Assembly (NCBI GenBank): GCA_004296815.1
Contig: SCVT01000056.1
Location: 1-8,293 of the forward strand
Source of the DNA: Reyranella sp.
GTDB taxonomy: Bacteria; Pseudomonadota; Alphaproteobacteria; Reyranellales; Reyranellaceae
Length of the DNA stretch: 8,293 bases
Direction of reading: 5' to 3'
In this document: positions 1-8,293 of the stretch, in pieces
Layout: every line of letters starts with the position of its first letter
Position numbering within the stretch: the stretch's first letter is position 1
Position numbers and translations under genes: made by a program
The notes under the pieces: model-generated
Databases searched by the model: none
What the model saw: the letters and a program-made list of their open reading frames with translations, nothing else
Told to the model about the DNA's origin: nothing

Positions 1-1190
1 GATCAGCCCCCTTCGTCCCCACTGTCCACCTGCGGGGCGGCTCGGCCATTCGCCGACCGCTGATCGTGCTGGCGGTCTGCGCCGTGGCGGTCATCGCCTA
101 CCTGGCACGCGACTTCCTCATCCCGACCGCGGCCGCGCTGGTCCTGGCTCTGATCCTGACTCCCGTCGCCAAGGCCTTCGAACGTGCGCGGCTGCCGCCG
201 ACGGCGGCCGCAGGCGTTTCGGTCTCGCTGCTGGCCGTCATCGTCGCCGGCGTGCTCGTCGTCTCGGCGCCGGCCATCTCGACCTGGGCGCAGCAGGCGC
301 CCTACCTCGCCTATACGCTGGAGCGCAAGCTCGAGGGCCTGCGCGAGTCTCTCGCGGTGGTGAAGCGGTTCACCGATCGCGTCGAGCAGGCAACTACCGG
401 CGCGCCGGCGACGCCCGGATCCACCAGTGCGGAGAAGCCCCCCGAGAAGGTCGTGGTGCGCGACAGGTCACTGCTGGGCGAAATCGCCAGCACCACGCCA
501 GCCCTGCTGCTGCAGATCGGCTACGCGGTCGTGCTGGCCTTCATGCTGCTCGCCCATCGCAACGACCACCGCCGCCAGATCCTGCGGGTGCCGCTCAACT
601 TCCACACGCGCGTGCGCCTGGCGCGGATCATGCGCGACATCAACGGCCGTGTCGGCAGCTATCTCTTCGCGCTGGTCGTCATCTATTCGGTGGTGGCCGT
701 CATCTGCACCGTCGTGCTCGCCTTGCTGGGCTTCCCCAACCCGTTGCTGTGGGGTGTGCTGATGGGGCTCGCCTCTTTCGTGCCCTTTATCGGTCCGCCG
801 GTCGCGATCGGCCTGGTCGCGCTCGTGGCGCTGATTACCTACGAGGACTGGTGGTTGATGCTGGCCGCTCCACTGGCGCTCGCGGCTATCCATGTCGTGG
901 AATCGCAGTTCATAACGCCGATCTTCGTCAGCCGTCGCTGCGCGCTGAACACGGTGGCGGTGTTTGCCGGTGTCGCCCTGCTGGGATGGATGTGGGGTGC
1001 CGTGGGCGCCATCGTGGCGGTGCCGCTGCTTATCCTGGCGAGCACCGTCGCGGCGCACCTGCCGTCCCTGCGCTGGCTGGAGGTCATGCTGTCGGAGGAC
1101 CGGCCCGTCAGCGAGCGCCTGGCCGTGAAGCCGCCGCTCGCCTCGGTGACTCCGCTTCAGATTCGGCGGCGGCGCGTCGCGACGAAGTAG
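1..1190 (+). CDS. AI-2E family transporter (PerM-like permease), 5' end outside window
   Basis: This is a polytopic inner-membrane protein of the AI-2E/PerM family. Members are linked to autoinducer-2 export or to Na+/H+ antiport, but the substrate here is unknown. The first hydrophobic block (AYLARDFLIPTAAALVLALI) matches the family's N-terminal helices. A soluble, charged stretch follows around residues 85-135 counted from GTG 66. The C-terminal half carries the family hallmarks: LGFPNPLLWGVLMG, ASFVPFIGP, VESQFITPIFVSRR and WGAVGAIVAVPLL. The reading frame is open to the left edge: 21 more codons precede the GTG at 66, including an R-R-P-L-I stretch that looks like the usual lead-in to helix 1. 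No in-frame ATG and no convincing Shine-Dalgarno lie before GTG 66, so the true start is probably left of the window. The stop is TAG 1188-1190, and the last 34 bp overlap the convergent gene at 1157-1420. The family call is firm; the start is not. Confidence 0.93.
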   Translation, partial: SAPFVPTVHLRGGSAIRRPLIVLAVCAVAVIAYLARDFLIPTAAALVLALILTPVAKAFERARLPPTAAAGVSVSLLAVIVAGVLVVSAPAISTWAQQAPYLAYTLERKLEGLRESLAVVKRFTDRVEQATTGAPATPGSTSAEKPPEKVVVRDRSLLGEIASTTPALLLQIGYAVVLAFMLLAHRNDHRRQILRVPLNFHTRVRLARIMRDINGRVGSYLFALVVIYSVVAVICTVVLALLGFPNPLLWGVLMGLASFVPFIGPPVAIGLVALVALITYEDWWLMLAAPLALAAIHVVESQFITPIFVSRRCALNTVAVFAGVALLGWMWGAVGAIVAVPLLILASTVAAHLPSLRWLEVMLSEDRPVSERLAVKPPLASVTPLQIRRRRVATK

Positions 1191-1420
1191 GAGCCGCCAA
1201 GCAGGGCCCAGAAGCCGCCGACGATGGCGGAGGCTGCGGCCGGGTCGAGATGACGCTCGATCAGGGCGAAGGCGGAGAAAGACAGGAAGATCGCGCCAAC
1301 GACGATCGCCAGGGCGGCGGCGAGCGTGAGTGCAGCGCGCGTCATGGCCTCGTGGGCTGCGACGCGCAACGAACGGGCCGCGGCAGCGGAAGCCGCGACC
1401 CGGAGCAGGGGGCCGATCAT
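1157..1420 (-). CDS. Small two-helix membrane protein, YqjE/phage-holin-III-like
   Basis: This is an 87-residue hydrophobic protein. A short cationic N-terminal segment (residues 1-26) is followed by one membrane segment at about 27-52, a turn with E-R-H-L-D-P, a second segment at about 60-82, and an R-R-R-R tail. This resembles the small 'phage holin superfamily III' (DUF1469, YqjE-like) proteins, which are chromosomal and not lytic. The main support is position: it lies 40 bp downstream of a DUF883/YqjD-like gene on the same strand, as yqjE follows yqjD in enterobacteria. The role is unknown; related pairs are membrane-associated stress or stationary-phase proteins. No good Shine-Dalgarno precedes ATG 1420. 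An alternative ATG at 1345 would leave 62 residues, but it would remove the helical lead-in typical of the family. Its 3' end overlaps the convergent AI-2E gene by 34 bp. The gene is likely; the family assignment is moderate. Confidence 0.68.
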   Translation of the reverse strand: MIGPLLRVAASAAAARSLRVAAHEAMTRAALTLAAALAIVVGAIFLSFSAFALIERHLDPAAASAIVGGFWALLGGSYFVATRRRRI

Positions 1421-1460
1421 GGATGGTCTCGTTCGGGCAGGAGCAGGCTTTGCCGGACGC

Positions 1461-1790
1461 CTATTGGCGACGACAAAGCCAGCCTGCGAGGAAGCCGATT
1501 CCGACGACGGCGGCGAGGGTCGTGAGCGGCCGCGATTCGGCCGTTTCCACGAGCTTGTCGGTCGCCTTGTTCCTGAGGTCGATCGTGTCGTTGGCGATCG
1601 CCTTGGCGGTGTCGCCGTACTTGGCGATCAGCTCACGCGCCGAGCGTAGCGTCTCCTCGAGCGCTTCCTCGCCGCGGGCCACGATCGAGTGGCCTGTGCC
1701 GTTGACCGAATCGGTCAGCTCCTCGAGCTGGGCCTTGAGCAGGGCGATCTCCTTGGCGAGATCCTTGCCGTTGTGGCTGGCGGCACGCAT
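1461..1790 (-). CDS. DUF883/ElaB/YqjD family membrane-anchored protein
   Basis: This 109-residue protein has an amphipathic, charged helical body (residues about 8-80, with repeated A/E/K/L heptad-like spacing and a YGDTAKAIAND segment). A single C-terminal hydrophobic anchor follows at about 88-105, introduced by R-P-L and containing V-G-I-G-F-L-A-G-W, with a basic C-R-R-Q tail. That architecture is diagnostic of the ElaB/YqjD/DUF883 family. In E. coli, members sit in the inner membrane and bind ribosomes in stationary phase. The open frame extends upstream to 2093, but the start is fixed at ATG 1790 by a GGAGGA Shine-Dalgarno (1797-1802) with a 6-nt spacer. The extra 101 residues would overlap the DinB gene and have shadow-like composition. 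It is followed 40 bp later by a YqjE-like gene. A candidate EcfG-type promoter lies 44 nt upstream of the ATG, which would fit general-stress control. Confidence 0.88.
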   Translation of the reverse strand: MRAASHNGKDLAKEIALLKAQLEELTDSVNGTGHSIVARGEEALEETLRSARELIAKYGDTAKAIANDTIDLRNKATDKLVETAESRPLTTLAAVVGIGFLAGWLCRRQ

Positions 1791-1796
1791 GGCGGG

Positions 1797-1802
1797 TCCT
1801 CC
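1797..1802 (-). promoter_or_regulatory. Shine-Dalgarno deciding the DUF883 gene start
   Basis: On the minus strand the sequence reads GGAGGA, six nucleotides (CCCGCC) before ATG 1790. This near-perfect anti-16S match at ideal spacing selects ATG 1790 over the longer open frame that begins at 2093. Confidence 0.85.
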
Positions 1803-1819
1803 GACTGCTGGGAAATGGG

Positions 1820-1839
1820 GCGTCTCGTTGACGAAACGC
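1820..1839 (-). terminator. Hairpin after the operon's last gene; possible terminator or leader stem
   Basis: On the minus strand GCGTTTCG and CGAGACGC form an 8-bp stem with one G-U pair around a TCAA tetraloop, about 37 nt after the glutaredoxin-DinB stop codon. The wobble pair works only in minus-strand RNA; the plus strand would have an A-C mismatch. The sequence that follows (CCCATTTCCC) is poor in U, so this is not a textbook intrinsic terminator. It may end the operon weakly. The left arm overlaps the proposed -10 element of the next gene. Confidence 0.35.
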
Positions 1840-1859
1840 TCACATCTCCGGGAGGTTGC
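1835..1859 (-). promoter_or_regulatory. Candidate EcfG-type (general stress) promoter for the DUF883 gene
   Basis: On the minus strand GCAAC (1855-1859) and CGTT (1835-1838) are separated by 16 nt. The alphaproteobacterial EcfG consensus is GGAAC-N16/17-CGTT, so 8 of 9 positions match at an allowed spacing. The -10 element ends 44 nt before ATG 1790, leaving room for a leader of about 37 nt. A chance match in an 86-bp gap is possible, and no experimental support is available. DUF883-type genes are plausible members of such a regulon. Confidence 0.42.
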
Positions 1860-1876
1860 AGTCTTTGGGCCGTCGA

Positions 1877-2629
1877 TCAGCCGTCCCAGACATTCTGGGG
1901 CATCGGCAGACGTGCGAAATCCGCATCGCCGAGCGGTCGGGAATGTCCGATGCCTTCGCGTTCCAGCAGCATCATCCACTGCCGCACGTGCTGACCCGAA
2001 TGCCAGGTTGTGCGTTCGAGCAGTTCGTGCAGGCTCTGCGGCCCGTAGTAGGTCGAGAGCGTGCGTGTCGCTGCCGTGTCGCCGCCCTGCCACCAGTTCC
2101 GGAAACGCCGCTGGATTTCAGTGCCGTAGCTGACGATGGAGGCGATGTCGGCATCCTCGGCGGGCTCCTCGCGGAACATGGCCTGCACCAGCGTGGTGCC
2201 CTGCTCGGCGTCGAGGAACGCCTGGACCACGCGAAAGAGGTGGAAGGCGAGCGAGCGGTAGCTGCGCGGCCGCCCCGGCACATGGACGTGCAGGCGTTCC
2301 GCCGGCATCAGCGGCAACAGCGCCAGCGCCGACGTCATGAACTTGTCGAGGCGACCGTAGAGTTCGGTCGGGGACAGCGCGGGCCCGGACTTCTCATCGA
2401 GGCCGAGGAACTCGACGATCTGCTTGGTACTCTGGCCGAATGTGTACGCAGTCCCGCGCGACAGCACCGGCACTGAACGCAAACCGAGCGCCTGCAGCTC
2501 GGCGAAGCCGGCCGGGTCTTCAAGAACATTCACGGAGATGAAGTCGATCCCACGGACCGATAGAAACTCTTTGAGTCTCAGACAGCTCGTTCAACCAGGC
2601 TGCCAGAAGACCTTCAACGGCTCGGACAT
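1877..2629 (-). CDS. Putative selenoprotein: glutaredoxin(UxxC)-DinB fusion with in-frame TGA
   Basis: Read from ATG 2629, this is a 250-codon protein with one internal TGA (2591-2593, codon 13). The glutaredoxin-like domain covers about residues 4-77. It begins LKVFWQPG-[TGA]-TSCLRLKEFL and contains the cis-proline motif (SVPV, P54) and the FGQ segment before its last helix. The TGA occupies the first, nucleophilic position of the CxxC motif; the resolving Cys16 is present. A DinB-fold domain follows at about 85-240, with the expected metal-ligand histidines H130 (AFHLF) and H210/H214 (WHSGQH). DinB relatives include thiol-dependent isomerases and transferases, so joining one to a glutaredoxin suggests low-molecular-weight-thiol chemistry. 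The start is set by GGAGGA six nt before the ATG and 19 nt after the preceding receptor gene's stop. A GTG at 2533 has no Shine-Dalgarno and would halve the glutaredoxin fold. Codons on both sides of the TGA are in frame and conserved-looking, which argues for selenocysteine over decay. A point nonsense mutation or base error is the alternative. Confidence 0.78.
2544..2560 (-). promoter_or_regulatory. SECIS-like hairpin 2 (7-bp stem, GUG loop)
   Basis: On the minus strand TCGGTCC-GTG-GGATCGA folds into a 7-bp stem (including one G-U pair) with a three-base loop whose first base is G. There are 37 nt between the TGA and the loop. As I recall the bacterial SECIS rules, they require G in the first two loop bases and 16-37 nt from UGA to loop, so this fits at the outer limit. 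The G-U pair exists only in minus-strand RNA. Confidence 0.5.
2563..2579 (-). promoter_or_regulatory. SECIS-like hairpin 1 (7-bp stem, AAA loop)
   Basis: On the minus strand GAGACTC-AAA-GAGTTTC forms a 7-bp stem with one G-U pair. It is 17 nt long and starts 11 nt after the TGA, the size and distance I recall for the minimal E. coli fdhF SECIS. The loop lacks the guanine that E. coli SelB needs, which weakens it. It may act alone or stack with the next hairpin, only 2 nt away. Confidence 0.42.
2591..2593 (-). other. In-frame TGA, proposed selenocysteine codon (Sec13)
   Basis: The minus strand reads CCT GGT TGA ACG AGC TGT, that is P-G-[TGA]-T-S-C. As I recall related glutaredoxin-DinB proteins, they have cysteine here (W-Q-P-G-C-x-S-C). 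Replacement of a redox cysteine in a thioredoxin-fold CxxC by UGA is the classic signature of a bacterial selenoprotein. No selA, selB, selC or selD is in the window, so the decoding machinery has to be shown elsewhere in the genome. Confidence 0.72.
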
Positions 2630-2635
2630 GGCGTT

Positions 2636-2641
2636 TCCTCC
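2636..2641 (-). promoter_or_regulatory. Shine-Dalgarno for the glutaredoxin-DinB start at 2629
   Basis: The minus strand reads GGAGGA followed by AACGCC and ATG at 2629. This strong site lies in the 19-nt gap after the Bug receptor's stop and would be pointless if translation ended 12 codons later at the TGA. It is the main reason to start the gene upstream of the in-frame TGA. Confidence 0.88.
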
Positions 2642-2648
2642 AAGGCAG

Positions 2649-3626
2649 TCATTTGGCTGGCCGTATGCCCAGCATGTCAAGCAGCCCCTTCCAGCGCTCG
2701 AGGTCGACGGCGAGGCGGACGGCAGCCTCGTCGGGCTTGGTCGTATCCACGACGACACCGAGCTGCGTGAGCTGACCCGAGACCTCGGATGATTCCACGA
2801 CGTCGCTCAGATCGCGATTCCAGGCGGCGACGAGGCGGGGAGGGAGACCGGCCGGCGCGAACAATCCGTACCAGTCGCTGACTTGCAGCTCGGGGTGACC
2901 GAGTTCGACGATGGTCGGCACGTCGGGCAGCATGGCGCTGCGCTTGGCGCCCGTGGTCACGAGCAGCCGCACACGGCCGCCGCGCTGGTGATGAAGGAGG
3001 GACGCGATGCTGGCGCAGCCAGCCGGAACCCTGCCCTCAGCGATGTCGTTGGCCAGCGGACCGGCGCCGCGGTAAGCCACGGGTTCGAGCTCCAGCCCGT
3101 GCTGCCGACCGAGCAACTGCGGGAAGTAGGTCGAGAAGGTATCCGGCGCCGCCGTGCCGAAGCGCCGCCGCTCGGGTGGCCCAGCCTTCACCCATTGCAC
3201 GTACTCAGCGAAGCTCGCGACGCCGATCTTGGGCGAAGCACCGAACACGGTCTCGTAGGTGCCGACCATGCCGAGCGGTGCGAGATCTGTTTGCGGGTCG
3301 AACGGAAATGTCGCGGGCGAAATCAATCGGCCGATCAGGGTCGTGCTGGCGACCAGACCGACGATCGAGCCGTCGGGCGCTGCCTTCGCCAGCATCTCAC
3401 CCATCGCCGCGCCGGATCCACCGGGCCGGTTCTCGACAGTGACCGAGCGGCCGATGCGTCTCTGCAGGCCGGGGCCGATCGCGCGGGCCACCGAGTCCGA
3501 ACCGCCGCCGGCGGGAAAGCCGACCAGGATGCGGAGTGCACGATCGGGCAGTCGGGGCTGCGCAACGGCATGCGACGAAAGCAACGACAGTGCTCCGGCA
3601 AGCACGGTGCGACGCGGTGCGGACAT
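2649..3626 (-). CDS. Bug/TctC family periplasmic substrate-binding receptor (copy 2)
   Basis: This 325-residue periplasmic receptor belongs to the tripartite tricarboxylate transporter (TTT) family. These proteins bind small carboxylates or related compounds and deliver them to TctA/TctB-type membrane partners, none of which is in the window. The N-terminus has an R-R pair then a hydrophobic stretch ending H-A-V-A before Q23, a probable signal peptide with some Tat-like character. The mature part has the standard family blocks: PDRALRILVGFPAGGGSD, VTVENRPGGSGAAMG, the AAPDG turn, FPFDPQTDLAP, and LPDVPTIVELGHPEL near the C-terminal third. The start at ATG 3626 has no clear Shine-Dalgarno; it begins 30 nt after the VOC gene's stop, so coupling to upstream translation is plausible. 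It is clearly paralogous to the receptor at 4054-5043 but well diverged, so the two may bind different ligands. Confidence 0.93.
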   Translation of the reverse strand: MSAPRRTVLAGALSLLSSHAVAQPRLPDRALRILVGFPAGGGSDSVARAIGPGLQRRIGRSVTVENRPGGSGAAMGEMLAKAAPDGSIVGLVASTTLIGRLISPATFPFDPQTDLAPLGMVGTYETVFGASPKIGVASFAEYVQWVKAGPPERRRFGTAAPDTFSTYFPQLLGRQHGLELEPVAYRGAGPLANDIAEGRVPAGCASIASLLHHQRGGRVRLLVTTGAKRSAMLPDVPTIVELGHPELQVSDWYGLFAPAGLPPRLVAAWNRDLSDVVESSEVSGQLTQLGVVVDTTKPDEAAVRLAVDLERWKGLLDMLGIRPAK

Positions 3627-3656
3627 TTGAGAAAGGCGGCGGTCGGACAGCGAGGT

Positions 3657-4040
3657 CTATTGCTTTCTGTGACAGACGACGCAGATCTTGTTGCCGTCGG
3701 GATCGCGCACATAGGCGCCATAGTAGTTGGGATGATAGTGCGTGCGGAGGCCCGGCGCACCTTCGTCCTTGCCGCCTGCCGCCATCGCCGCGGCATGGGC
3801 GGCATCGACGGTGCCGCGGTCGGCGGCCTCCAGTCCGACGGTGATGCCGTTGCCGACGGTCGCTGCGTTCTTGTCGAGCGGGCTCAGCACCCAGAGCTGG
3901 GGCCGGCCGCCGGCCGGACCGTAGCCGACGGCATTGGGATAGTCCGCGTGGCGCACGAGGCCGAGCGGCTTCAGCAGCCCGTCGTAGAAGGGCTTGGCCT
4001 TGCCGAGATCGTTGCTGCCGATCGTCACGTGGCTGAACAT
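3657..4040 (-). CDS. VOC (glyoxalase/bleomycin-resistance) family protein
   Basis: This 127-residue cytoplasmic protein is a single vicinal-oxygen-chelate unit of two beta-alpha-beta-beta-beta modules. It starts M-F-S-H-V-T-I-G with the first expected metal histidine (H4), continues DLGKAKPFYDGLLKPLGL, and ends RTHYHPNYYGAYVRDPDGNK. The usual C-terminal ligand position, often Glu just after DPDGNK-[hydrophobic], is Cys120 here (N-K-I-C-V-V-C-H). It may therefore bind its metal differently or not be a glyoxalase. It is not possible to tell lactoylglutathione lyase, dioxygenase or fosfomycin/bleomycin-type activity from sequence alone. The start at ATG 4040 is well supported: the upstream stop and SD are fused (TGAGGAGAGG, then CGACGC), indicating translational coupling to the receptor gene 13 nt upstream. 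It sits between two paralogous Bug receptors. Confidence 0.88.
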   Translation of the reverse strand: MFSHVTIGSNDLGKAKPFYDGLLKPLGLVRHADYPNAVGYGPAGGRPQLWVLSPLDKNAATVGNGITVGLEAADRGTVDAAHAAAMAAGGKDEGAPGLRTHYHPNYYGAYVRDPDGNKICVVCHRKQ

Positions 4041-4046
4041 GCGTCG

Positions 4047-4056
4047 CCTCTCCTCA
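4047..4056 (-). promoter_or_regulatory. Shine-Dalgarno overlapping the upstream stop (VOC gene)
   Basis: The minus strand reads TGAGGAGAGG, then CGACGC and ATG 4040. The TGA is the stop of the Bug receptor at 4054-5043, and its last base begins the purine-rich AGGAGAGG site. This arrangement favours translational coupling of the two genes. Confidence 0.75.
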
Positions 4057-5043
4057 GTTCACCGGCTTCATCCCGAGCGCCTCGAGCGAGGCCTGCCACT
4101 TCTTCATGTGAGCCGCAAGGCGCTCCGCACAGGCGGCGGGTGTCGAGGTCTCGACATCGAGCCCGAGCTGACCCAGCTGGTCCTTGATCTCCCTGCTCTC
4201 GAGAACGGCGACGAGCGCGCGGTTCCAGGCGTCGACCGTCGGCTCTGGTGTCCCTGCGCGGGCGTAGAAGCCGTACCACTCCTCCATCGTCAGGCCTGGA
4301 TAGCCTGCCTCGGCGGCTGTCGGCAGGTCCGGCGCGATGGCGACGCGCTTCGAGCCGGAGGTCGCGAGGATGCGGATGCGGTTGGCGCGATGGGCCACCA
4401 GGAACGACGTCAGGCCGGCGACGCCCGCCGGCACCTTGCCGTCGGCCATGTCGTTGATCAGCGCCGAGGTGCCGCGAAACGGCACACCCTCCAGGCGAAC
4501 GCCGAACTCGCGACTGAACAGGCCTACATAGAATTTGAGCGAGGCATCCGATGCCGTCGCACCCAACCGGTTGCGGCCGGGTTCTCCGGCCTTCAGCCAC
4601 TGCACGTAGTCGGCGACGGTCGTGATGCCGAGTGACGTCGGCACCGCGAGCCCGTCGATGAACGTACCGGCGGTCGTGATGGGCGCGAGGTCGGTCGCCG
4701 GATCGAACGGGTAGGCGGGGGTGAAAAGCTTGGCGACCATGGACGGCGTGGGCATGAACGCGACCATGCTTCCGTCAGGGGCGCCGAACTTCAGCGCCTC
4801 GCCCGCGGCTGCGCCGGTGCCGCCGGGGCGATTCTCGACCGTGACCCGGCGGCCGGTCCGGCGCTCCAAGGCGGTCGCGATCAATCGCGCCATGCCATCC
4901 GAACCGCCACCCGCGCTGAAGCCGACGACGATGCGCAGGGTTCGGTCAGGCAACTCGGTTTGTCCACGCGCGACCGTCGGTACAGTCGCCAACGCACCAA
5001 TCGCGAGGATCGATCTTCGGTGGAGAGATCGTGGTGCGCCCAT
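4054..5043 (-). CDS. Bug/TctC family periplasmic substrate-binding receptor (copy 1)
   Basis: This 329-residue tripartite tricarboxylate transporter receptor begins MGAPRSLHRRSILAIGAL, a probable export signal with a twin arginine, ending around residue 28. The mature blocks are PDRTLRIVVGFSAGGGSD, VTVENRPGGTGAAAGEAL, YPFDPATDLAPITTAG, VPFRGTSALINDMADGKVP and APDLPTAAEAGYPGL, all typical of the Bug fold. The open frame runs upstream to 5163, but ATG 5043 is chosen because it gives a standard signal peptide and lies 4 nt after the monooxygenase stop (TGAGCGGATG on the minus strand). A start at 5163 would add 40 non-signal residues and overlap the monooxygenase gene. No TctA/TctB partners are present, so it is an orphan receptor in this window. 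Its position directly after a monooxygenase suggests it captures that enzyme's substrate or a breakdown product (inference). Confidence 0.93.
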   Translation of the reverse strand: MGAPRSLHRRSILAIGALATVPTVARGQTELPDRTLRIVVGFSAGGGSDGMARLIATALERRTGRRVTVENRPGGTGAAAGEALKFGAPDGSMVAFMPTPSMVAKLFTPAYPFDPATDLAPITTAGTFIDGLAVPTSLGITTVADYVQWLKAGEPGRNRLGATASDASLKFYVGLFSREFGVRLEGVPFRGTSALINDMADGKVPAGVAGLTSFLVAHRANRIRILATSGSKRVAIAPDLPTAAEAGYPGLTMEEWYGFYARAGTPEPTVDAWNRALVAVLESREIKDQLGQLGLDVETSTPAACAERLAAHMKKWQASLEALGMKPVN

Positions 5044-5047
5044 CCGC

Positions 5048-6370
5048 TCAGGATGAACGACGCGCCGGCCGAGGCAAGCCGAAATGATCGCGCAAGGTGG
5101 AGCCTTCATAAGCGGTGCGGAAAAGGCCGCGCCTCTGGAGGACCGGCACGACCTCGGCGACAAACAGGTCGAGCATGATGGGCAACAGCGGTGGCATCAG
5201 GTTGAAGCCGTCGGCGGCACCATCGTCGAACCAGTCTTCGATCAGATCGGCGATCTGCTCGGGGGTGCCGGCGGTGGTGTAGTGGCCGCGGGCGCCAGCG
5301 AGATAGGCGAGCAGCTGGCGCAATGTGAATTTTTCGCGACGGACCAGGCCAACGATCACCTCGGTGCGACTGCGAGCGGCTTGCACGGTCCCAGGGTCGG
5401 GGAAGTCCTCGGCAGCGAGCGGCTTGTCGAGCGGCAGGTGTGAGAAGTCGTGGCCGCCGAAGCGACCGGAGAGGCGCTTGCGGCCGACCTCGGGATCGGT
5501 GAGGTCGTTCAGCTCCTTGGCGAGGCGCTTCGCCTCGGTCTCGGTCGATGCGATCACCGGGCTGAGGCCCGGCAGGATCAGCACCTGTTCGGACGGCCGA
5601 CCTTCTGCAGCGGCCAGCGCCTTGAGGTCGGCATAGAACGCCTGCGCCGTCCTCTTTTCCATCTGCGCCGTGAAGACCGCTTCGGCATGGCGTGCGGCGA
5701 AGCGGCGGCCGGTGTCGGACGAGCCCGCTTGGACGAACACGGGACGGCCCTGGGGGCCGCGCGGCATGTTGAGCGGGCCGGCCACCTTGTAGAACTTGCC
5801 GGCGTGGTCGATCGGCCGGATGCGCTCGGCGCGCGCATAGTCGCCGCTCGCGCGATCGTCGAGCACGGCATCGTCTGCCCAGCTGTCCCACAGTGCCTTC
5901 ACGACCTGGACGAACTCCTCGCCGCGTTCGTAGCGCTCATCATGGCTCACAAGGCTTTCGCCACCGTAGTTGCGCGCCGCCGCGGCGAGCCATGAGGTCA
6001 CAATGTTCCAGCCGACTCGGCCGCCGCTGATATGGTCGAGCGAACCGAACTGGCGCGCGAGGTTGAAGGGCTCGGAATAGGTCGTCGAGGCCGTGGCGAT
6101 CAGGCCGATGCGGCTGGTCGAGCCGGCGATCGCGCCGAGAGCCGTGATGGGCTCCAGCCACGTGCTGGCGGCGTGTGCGACCGTGTCCATCAGCGCCAGC
6201 GTGTCGGCGAGGAAGATCGAGTCGAAGAGGCCGGCCTCGGCGCGGCGCGCGAGGTCGCGGAAATATTCGATGTCGGTCAGCGCGAGGGGCGAGGAGTCCG
6301 GGTGCCGCCACGACGCCTCGTGGTGGCCCCGGCTCTGGATGAAGAGATTGAGATGGAGCTGCCGCTTCAT
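5048..6370 (-). CDS. LLM-class flavin-dependent monooxygenase (NtaA/SnaA/DszA/SoxA family)
   Basis: This 440-residue cytoplasmic monooxygenase has the bacterial-luciferase-like TIM-barrel fold and is the large subunit type of two-component systems that use FMNH2 from a separate reductase. Characterised relatives act on nitrilotriacetate, dibenzothiophene sulfone and pristinamycin precursors. Diagnostic stretches are the N-terminal MKRQLHLNLFIQSRGHHEASWRHP, FDSIFLADTLAL, TTYSEPFNLARQFGSLD, the DHISGGRVGWNIVTS block at residues 112-126, and QAGSSDTGRRFAARHAEAVF near residues 214-233, which in this family lies by the flavin phosphate. The length is typical. The frame extends upstream to 6460, but ATG 6370 begins the conserved N-terminus and lies 4 nt after the ABC gene's stop (TGAGGGGATG), so re-initiation is likely. 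No flavin reductase gene is in the window. Similarity alone does not fix the substrate; an organosulfur or aminopolycarboxylate compound is possible. Confidence 0.93.
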   Translation of the reverse strand: MKRQLHLNLFIQSRGHHEASWRHPDSSPLALTDIEYFRDLARRAEAGLFDSIFLADTLALMDTVAHAASTWLEPITALGAIAGSTSRIGLIATASTTYSEPFNLARQFGSLDHISGGRVGWNIVTSWLAAAARNYGGESLVSHDERYERGEEFVQVVKALWDSWADDAVLDDRASGDYARAERIRPIDHAGKFYKVAGPLNMPRGPQGRPVFVQAGSSDTGRRFAARHAEAVFTAQMEKRTAQAFYADLKALAAAEGRPSEQVLILPGLSPVIASTETEAKRLAKELNDLTDPEVGRKRLSGRFGGHDFSHLPLDKPLAAEDFPDPGTVQAARSRTEVIVGLVRREKFTLRQLLAYLAGARGHYTTAGTPEQIADLIEDWFDDGAADGFNLMPPLLPIMLDLFVAEVVPVLQRRGLFRTAYEGSTLRDHFGLPRPARRSS

Positions 6371-6374
6371 CCCC

Positions 6375-8293
<1,919 letters not shown>

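Follow-up and report, generated by a model that had tools for sequence, protein, structure and literature searches.

An in-frame TGA at the nucleophile position of a glutaredoxin-DinB fusion gene from Reyranella is probably a selenocysteine codon

Does a TGA that interrupts a reading frame after only twelve codons end the protein, or does it encode the catalytic residue of a longer one? The question is raised by an 8,293-nucleotide stretch of Reyranella sp. DNA (assembly GCA_004296815.1, contig SCVT01000056.1, positions 1 to 8,293; the window), in which a glutaredoxin domain and a DinB-like domain are joined in one minus-strand frame with TGA at codon 13. An earlier interpretation made from the letters of the window (the sequence-only reading) took the gene to encode a selenoprotein, a proposal that is now backed by sel genes in the genome, by exchange of the TGA with cysteine codons in relatives and by an RNA hairpin linked to the TGA. 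We consider it very probable that the codon is decoded as selenocysteine (Sec) by the organism's own SelA, SelB, tRNA-Sec and SelD under the direction of the hairpin; taken by itself, Sec insertion at codon 13 appears nearly certain.

Read through the TGA, the gene encodes a protein of 250 residues. The frame starts with ATG at 2629-2627, reaches the TGA at 2593-2591 after 12 codons and then stays open for 237 codons until the TGA stop at 1879-1877.

1877..2629, minus strand: glutaredoxin-DinB fusion gene, 250 residues, codon 13 TGA read through, terminal stop TGA at 1877-1879
2636..2641, minus strand: GGAGGA, Shine-Dalgarno-like, 6-nt spacer to the ATG, read directly in the sequence
2591..2593, minus strand: TGA at the glutaredoxin nucleophile position (residue 13), predicted Sec codon

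These elements had all been named in the sequence-only reading and were found again when the sequence was reread. The residues around the TGA are MSEPLKVFWQPG-U-TSC, the C being Cys16, followed by Ser-Val-Pro54 and the DinB-like C-terminal part; the TGA thus sits at the first Cys of the CxxC motif (W-Q-P-G-U-T-S-C).

That the TGA replaces the catalytic Cys, as had been claimed, is borne out by the relatives. When every distinct gene read was pooled (n = 103; the truncated locus L106 was left out), codon 13 was TGA in 70 and TGC or TGT in 33, so that every codon other than TGA at this position was a Cys codon. The protein had matches in 59 of 101 genomes, the window's own included: 57 contained the fusion with exactly one internal TGA, and two, left out of the fusion count, matched with a short glutaredoxin only. 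Thirty of the 57 were fetched as loci, and in all 30 the TGA was at codon 13. Among named-species relatives the best 80 of 87 were kept, a choice that favours close, TGA-bearing genes; after removal of two loci ending before codon 13 (L103 and L104) and addition of the window, the 79 rows had TGA in 57, TGC in 14 and TGT in 8 cases. Even sampling of the class gave matches at E <= 1e-20 in 32 of 385 genomes, spread over many families, and the 27 loci obtained from these matches carried TGA in 16 and Cys codons in 11 cases. At the same threshold only 2 of 398 genomes of a phylum sample matched, both from the window's genus, which says little, because even sampling misses the Burkholderiales Cys forms that are present among the named-species relatives. 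The same TGA was seen in many assemblies, including those of the isolates Reyranella massiliensis 521 and R. soli, and the KVFWQPG sequence upstream of it is conserved at the protein level while its codons vary synonymously. The fusion gene is common to many Alphaproteobacteria, and the conservation of its TGA is far beyond chance.

The residue preceding the Sec codon appears to be free: in some distant TGA genes (L148-L152, L157, L159) G is replaced by A or H (WQPA-U, WQPH-U).

The use of Sec in Reyranella and many other Alphaproteobacteria is usually attributed to formate dehydrogenase alone. The search for sel genes that the sequence-only reading had recommended found the complete set in the window's genome: selA (528.7 bits), selB (457.1 bits), selD (293.6 bits) and the tRNA-Sec gene selC (71.5 bits; anticodon TCA by ARAGORN), with selA, selB and selC together on one contig (C618, locus L138). 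Formate-dehydrogenase-type genes lie beside them, some of which probably encode the smaller subunits of that enzyme. In R. massiliensis an in-frame TGA (L139, 14182-14184, minus strand) between frames of 212 and 832 codons adjoins the sel genes; this frame is presumably fdhA and its TGA probably the formate dehydrogenase Sec codon. The sequence following that TGA folds differently from that of the fusion gene. SelA was found in 52 of the 57 genomes with the TGA fusion gene versus 8 of the 44 without it (tallied by hand, weak matches in G050, G069 and G096 being counted as absent). Outside the window's genus, 14 of 15 TGA genomes had SelA versus 3 of 13 genomes with Cys forms only (Fisher P 0.0003, a value that can serve only as a guide, the genomes being related).

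Downstream of the TGA, the following features were recognized in the RNA:

2544..2560, minus strand: hairpin resembling a selenocysteine insertion sequence (SECIS), separated from the TGA by 36 nt; six pairs around the loop CGUGG (here a seventh is possible, leaving the loop GUG)
2543..2590, minus strand: codons 14-29, strongest synonymous suppression in TGA genes
2563..2579, minus strand: second possible hairpin, between the TGA and the SECIS-like one, conserved in the Reyranella-like group only and without covariation support

The six pairs of the SECIS-like hairpin and the GU of its loop were kept in 70 of 70 distinct TGA genes, whereas the 33 Cys genes retained at most four of the pairs and none had GU in the loop. 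Pairs were counted on 44 sequences (31 chosen from 50 distinct stretches of Reyranella type, plus 13 from another 16). RNAalifold, applied to these without guidance, recovered the 2544-2560 hairpin, and all 44 retained the six pairs. At two of the pairs both partners had changed (C-G in place of U-A in four sequences, G-C in place of U-A in one); these five cells compare with 0.4 in shuffled alignments, and none of 500 shuffles reached five. The innermost possible pair failed in 16 of the 44, in which the loop opens to CGUGN. In PMC13188914 the bacterial SECIS is modelled with a loop of 3-9 nt, a stem of 4-16 bp, a spacing of 16-37 nt, a minimum free energy of <= -7.5 and G followed by G or U in the first two loop positions. 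The hairpin, with its loop of 5 nt, stem of 6 bp, spacing of 36 nt and energy of -7.5 kcal/mol when folded alone, lies within all these ranges; the second base of its loop is G and the next U, in agreement with that model.

Suppression of synonymous change over codons 14-29 was confined to the TGA genes. In these the observed/expected ratio was 0.22, the median over 16-codon windows being 0.76; this was the second lowest of 235 values (the lowest belonged to the window shifted one codon on), and 0 of 20000 random codon sets were as low. For 22 Cys genes the ratio over the same codons was 0.86 (rank 70). We infer that SelB would bind the 2544-2560 hairpin and, from this position 36 nt downstream, bring about the decoding of UGA as Sec.

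A milder synonymous dip was also noticed in the TGA genes at codons ~49-75 (2405-2485, minus strand; 0.40-0.56 in 9-codon windows); since the Cys genes, too, have their lowest values there (~0.70), it is not tied to the TGA. The hairpin at 2563-2579 forms a perfect-looking 7-bp stem (98.6% of cells in the Reyranella-like set) that is lost in distant TGA genes. It was dropped as a SECIS candidate because covariation was absent over the 44 sequences: no pair had changed on both sides, and 497 of 500 shuffles had a higher covariation score.

Several observations weigh against Sec insertion. The energy of the hairpin is exactly at the limit of the model, the single-sequence fold was no better than that of shuffled sequences (z -0.64; 48 of 200 shuffles as good), and Rfam gave no match to the window at gathering score, only weak chance matches at E up to 10. 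Inside the genus SelA and the gene were uncorrelated (52 of 56 gene-bearing genomes had SelA, as did 4 of 5 without the gene), so it is only by comparing genera that SelA can be linked to the TGA. No SelA turned up in five TGA genomes, of which two (G017 and G050) had SelB; in the other three (G018, G040 and G072, respectively 89, 60 and 77% complete) SelB was not detected either.

One alternative is that the TGA is an ordinary stop and that the real protein is a plain DinB protein starting downstream, at residue 17 or later, as annotated. In-frame start codons are present for such a protein. None of the seven database proteins read begins before residue 17, and the 120 listed of 1983 database matches are all of at most 239 residues; on account of this, the database matches seen represent the protein only in truncated form. 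However, a protein beginning at the annotated start would have a glutaredoxin that, though intact in other respects, lacked its first strand and its active site; the amino acids encoded ahead of the TGA are conserved, the TGA is exchanged only for Cys codons, and hairpin and sel genes accompany it, all of which make a stop very improbable. We assign a similarly small probability to decoding as Cys or some other residue without selenium. This would agree with the Cys found opposite the TGA in all homologs read that lack it, but it would leave the TGA-specific hairpin pointless; moreover, the Sec machinery is far commoner in TGA genomes, and TGA serves as a normal stop elsewhere, including the end of this very gene.

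A sequencing error or a nonsense mutation in a decaying gene might be suspected because the assembly behind the window is a draft of metagenome type (4.64 Mb in 770 contigs, 89.5% complete). The TGA nevertheless recurs in 70 distinct genes taken from numerous assemblies, isolates included, and the close relatives share it with intact frames and invariant functional residues, without the decay that the sequence-only reading had listed among the refuting outcomes. As a general explanation, error or decay is refuted by the 57 genomes with a single TGA, by its position at codon 13 in all 30 of those fetched as loci and by the 16 TGA loci of the class sample, and we regard it as the least probable of the explanations considered. 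Sec at codon 13 thus remains the reading that we prefer, and what the protein might do with it was approached through its domains and conserved residues:

2402..2617, minus strand: glutaredoxin domain (~residues 5-76), from Pfam and structure-model matches
1928..2380, minus strand: DinB/YfiT-like four-helix domain (~residues 84-234)
2582..2584, minus strand: Cys16, resolving cysteine of U-T-S-C
2468..2470, minus strand: Pro54, taken from the SVP motif to be the cis-Pro of the thioredoxin fold
2240..2242, minus strand: His130, predicted metal ligand 1
2000..2002, minus strand: His210, predicted metal ligand 2
1988..1990, minus strand: His214, predicted metal ligand 3

The glutaredoxin half exceeded the Pfam cut-off (PF00462; E 3.7e-9, 37.1 bits, cut-off 22.9) and also resembles the NrdH and YruB types of NCBIfam. 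The best PDB sequence match was glutaredoxin 7c10/cGrx1, presumably the clostridial Sec-glutaredoxin. A confident two-domain structure model predicts a thioredoxin-type fold for this half and a DinB four-helix fold for the C-terminal half. The structures matched by the model were DinB and glutaredoxin structures, including those of mycothiol-dependent enzymes and BstA; 2nsf/2nsg, also among them, presumably represent MDMPI. DinB_2 (PF12867) is precomputed for many, though not all, of 120 listed Cys-form relatives. In a residue alignment of 105 rows (72 TGA and 33 Cys; two pairs of TGA rows are identical) the five single residues listed above were invariant, as were W9, K20, W179, Y194, G196, R206, Q213, R216 and Q217. 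The resolving Cys and the cis-Pro, which had been said to be retained, are therefore present throughout, Pro54 being taken as the cis-Pro by the rule for the SVP motif.

The most likely role, put forward tentatively, is that of an enzyme that transfers thiols with the help of a metal and is coupled to a Sec-glutaredoxin. In such an enzyme Sec13 would attack a mixed disulfide or conjugate to form a selenenyl-sulfide, which Cys16 would resolve. His130, His210 and His214 would hold a divalent metal that activates a low-molecular-weight thiol, as in DinB-type transferases, and the activated thiol would be passed to an electrophile or a protein, so that transfer and reduction would take place in one chain. 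The thiol is likely to be glutathione, because the genome contains a glutathione synthase (415 bits), and thioredoxin reductase is a possible reductant, because the glutaredoxin half resembles the NrdH and YruB types. Transferases using mycothiol, bacillithiol and glutathione have been described among the DinB-type enzymes (PMC10950700). Two results count against this assignment: the DinB_2 match of the window protein (22.8 bits) is just below the cut-off of 24.8, and no neighbours were conserved beyond close relatives, the commonest neighbour group occurring in 6 of 31 chosen loci.

It is about equally conceivable that Sec is real and the DinB half is another metal enzyme, hydrolase-like or with an O2-using iron centre of the EgtB/OvoA type, the Sec-glutaredoxin merely keeping this half or a partner reduced. 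The fusion of glutaredoxin to the domain in every homolog read points instead to thiol chemistry, and characterised DinB relatives are mostly thiol transferases or isomerases (PMC10950700). Still bolder, and in our opinion rather unlikely, is a new selenoprotein family of the Alphaproteobacteria whose selenium-dependent 'transfer-and-reduce' enzymes would handle one substrate successively through the metal-bound thiolate of the DinB half and the selenolate of the glutaredoxin half, the Burkholderiales-type Cys forms possibly being derived from Sec forms.

In a tree of 78 mostly close rows a single branch (support 96) separated TGA from Cys genes. When 26 more distant rows were included, the label changed about three times (2-3 times in bootstrap trees; a single change in 5% of them). 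Two TGA genes grouped weakly with Burkholderiales Cys genes (88/77) in this unrooted tree, and because of this grouping some Cys forms may have had Sec-containing ancestors. In genome G365 the fusion is present twice, once with TGA and once with Cys (L173, L174), which could be useful for asking what Sec adds; genome G004 also has both copies but may be contaminated (7%).

Gene neighbourhood was dropped as a functional clue because its conservation is limited to close relatives, where an AI-2E transporter (39 of 79 loci), an ABC transporter (34) and TctC proteins (32) recur. The neighbours scanned were of unrelated types (chromate transporter, ferric-reductase-like, old-yellow-enzyme-like, amidase). 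In the window, two TctC-type binding proteins, a glyoxalase-type protein and a luciferase-like monooxygenase are encoded upstream on the same strand (2649-6460, minus), an arrangement seen in close relatives only. Directly downstream (1464-1790, minus) lies a gene for a small protein of 109 residues with no Pfam match.

Selenoprotein glutaredoxins were stated in the sequence-only reading to be known in some bacteria, and Table 1 of PMC13188914 indeed lists one (PF00462, UxxC) as experimentally verified. The 119 prokaryotic selenoprotein families of that 2026 table include the UxxC glutaredoxin and no DinB fusion, and 'DinB' occurs 0 times in the main text; the word is likewise absent from the passages seen of PMC9312934 and PMC12013277. 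The literature search found no link between a selenoprotein glutaredoxin and DinB and no Reyranella selenoprotein, the supplementary tables of the surveys, where the fusion might be listed unnamed under 'glutaredoxin', lying outside it; nor did it find a functional study of Cys-form glutaredoxin-DinB proteins. In NCBIfam every match of the window protein was below its cut-off, and none names such a fusion. The fusion of a Sec-glutaredoxin to DinB is thus new as far as found, and the word 'undescribed' used in the sequence-only reading is supported only within the libraries and literature searched. The gene appears to add a selenoprotein family whose active site is lost in current annotation, and it would tie selenium to DinB thiol enzymes, a link not found in the literature searched. 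The TGA-linked hairpin with its covariation and the 33 matched Cys genes together make up a natural experiment on SECIS function and on the exchange of Sec and Cys.

Among known systems, bacterial formate dehydrogenase is an unrelated selenoprotein, although genes of its type lie beside the sel genes of the window's genome. The selenoprotein glutaredoxin has the same glutaredoxin fold and UxxC with resolving Cys, whereas the window protein, of about 250 residues, has a DinB domain fused behind it. The UXX-star and HUGP/GUXX-star families (NF041212, NF041211, NF047338, NF045501) share a short glutaredoxin-like domain with an active-site Sec, and one of them is a fusion; the window protein scored 26.3 bits against the NF041212 cut-off of 66, which places it outside that family, and it has its own motif, U-T-S-C, and its own partner, DinB. 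With the DinB/YfiT superfamily (BstA, YfiT, mycothiol S-transferase, MDMPI) it shares the four-helix bundle and the H...HxxxH triad, but according to the matched entries those are separate proteins, whereas here the DinB domain is joined to a glutaredoxin. In Burkholderiales and other Proteobacteria there are Cys forms of the glutaredoxin-DinB protein, annotated as 'glutaredoxin' or 'DinB family protein', with the same architecture, 40-50% identity and a Cys at the TGA position; unlike the window gene, they have neither the TGA nor the hairpin, and 10 of the 13 Cys-only genomes of the class that were checked were without SelA.
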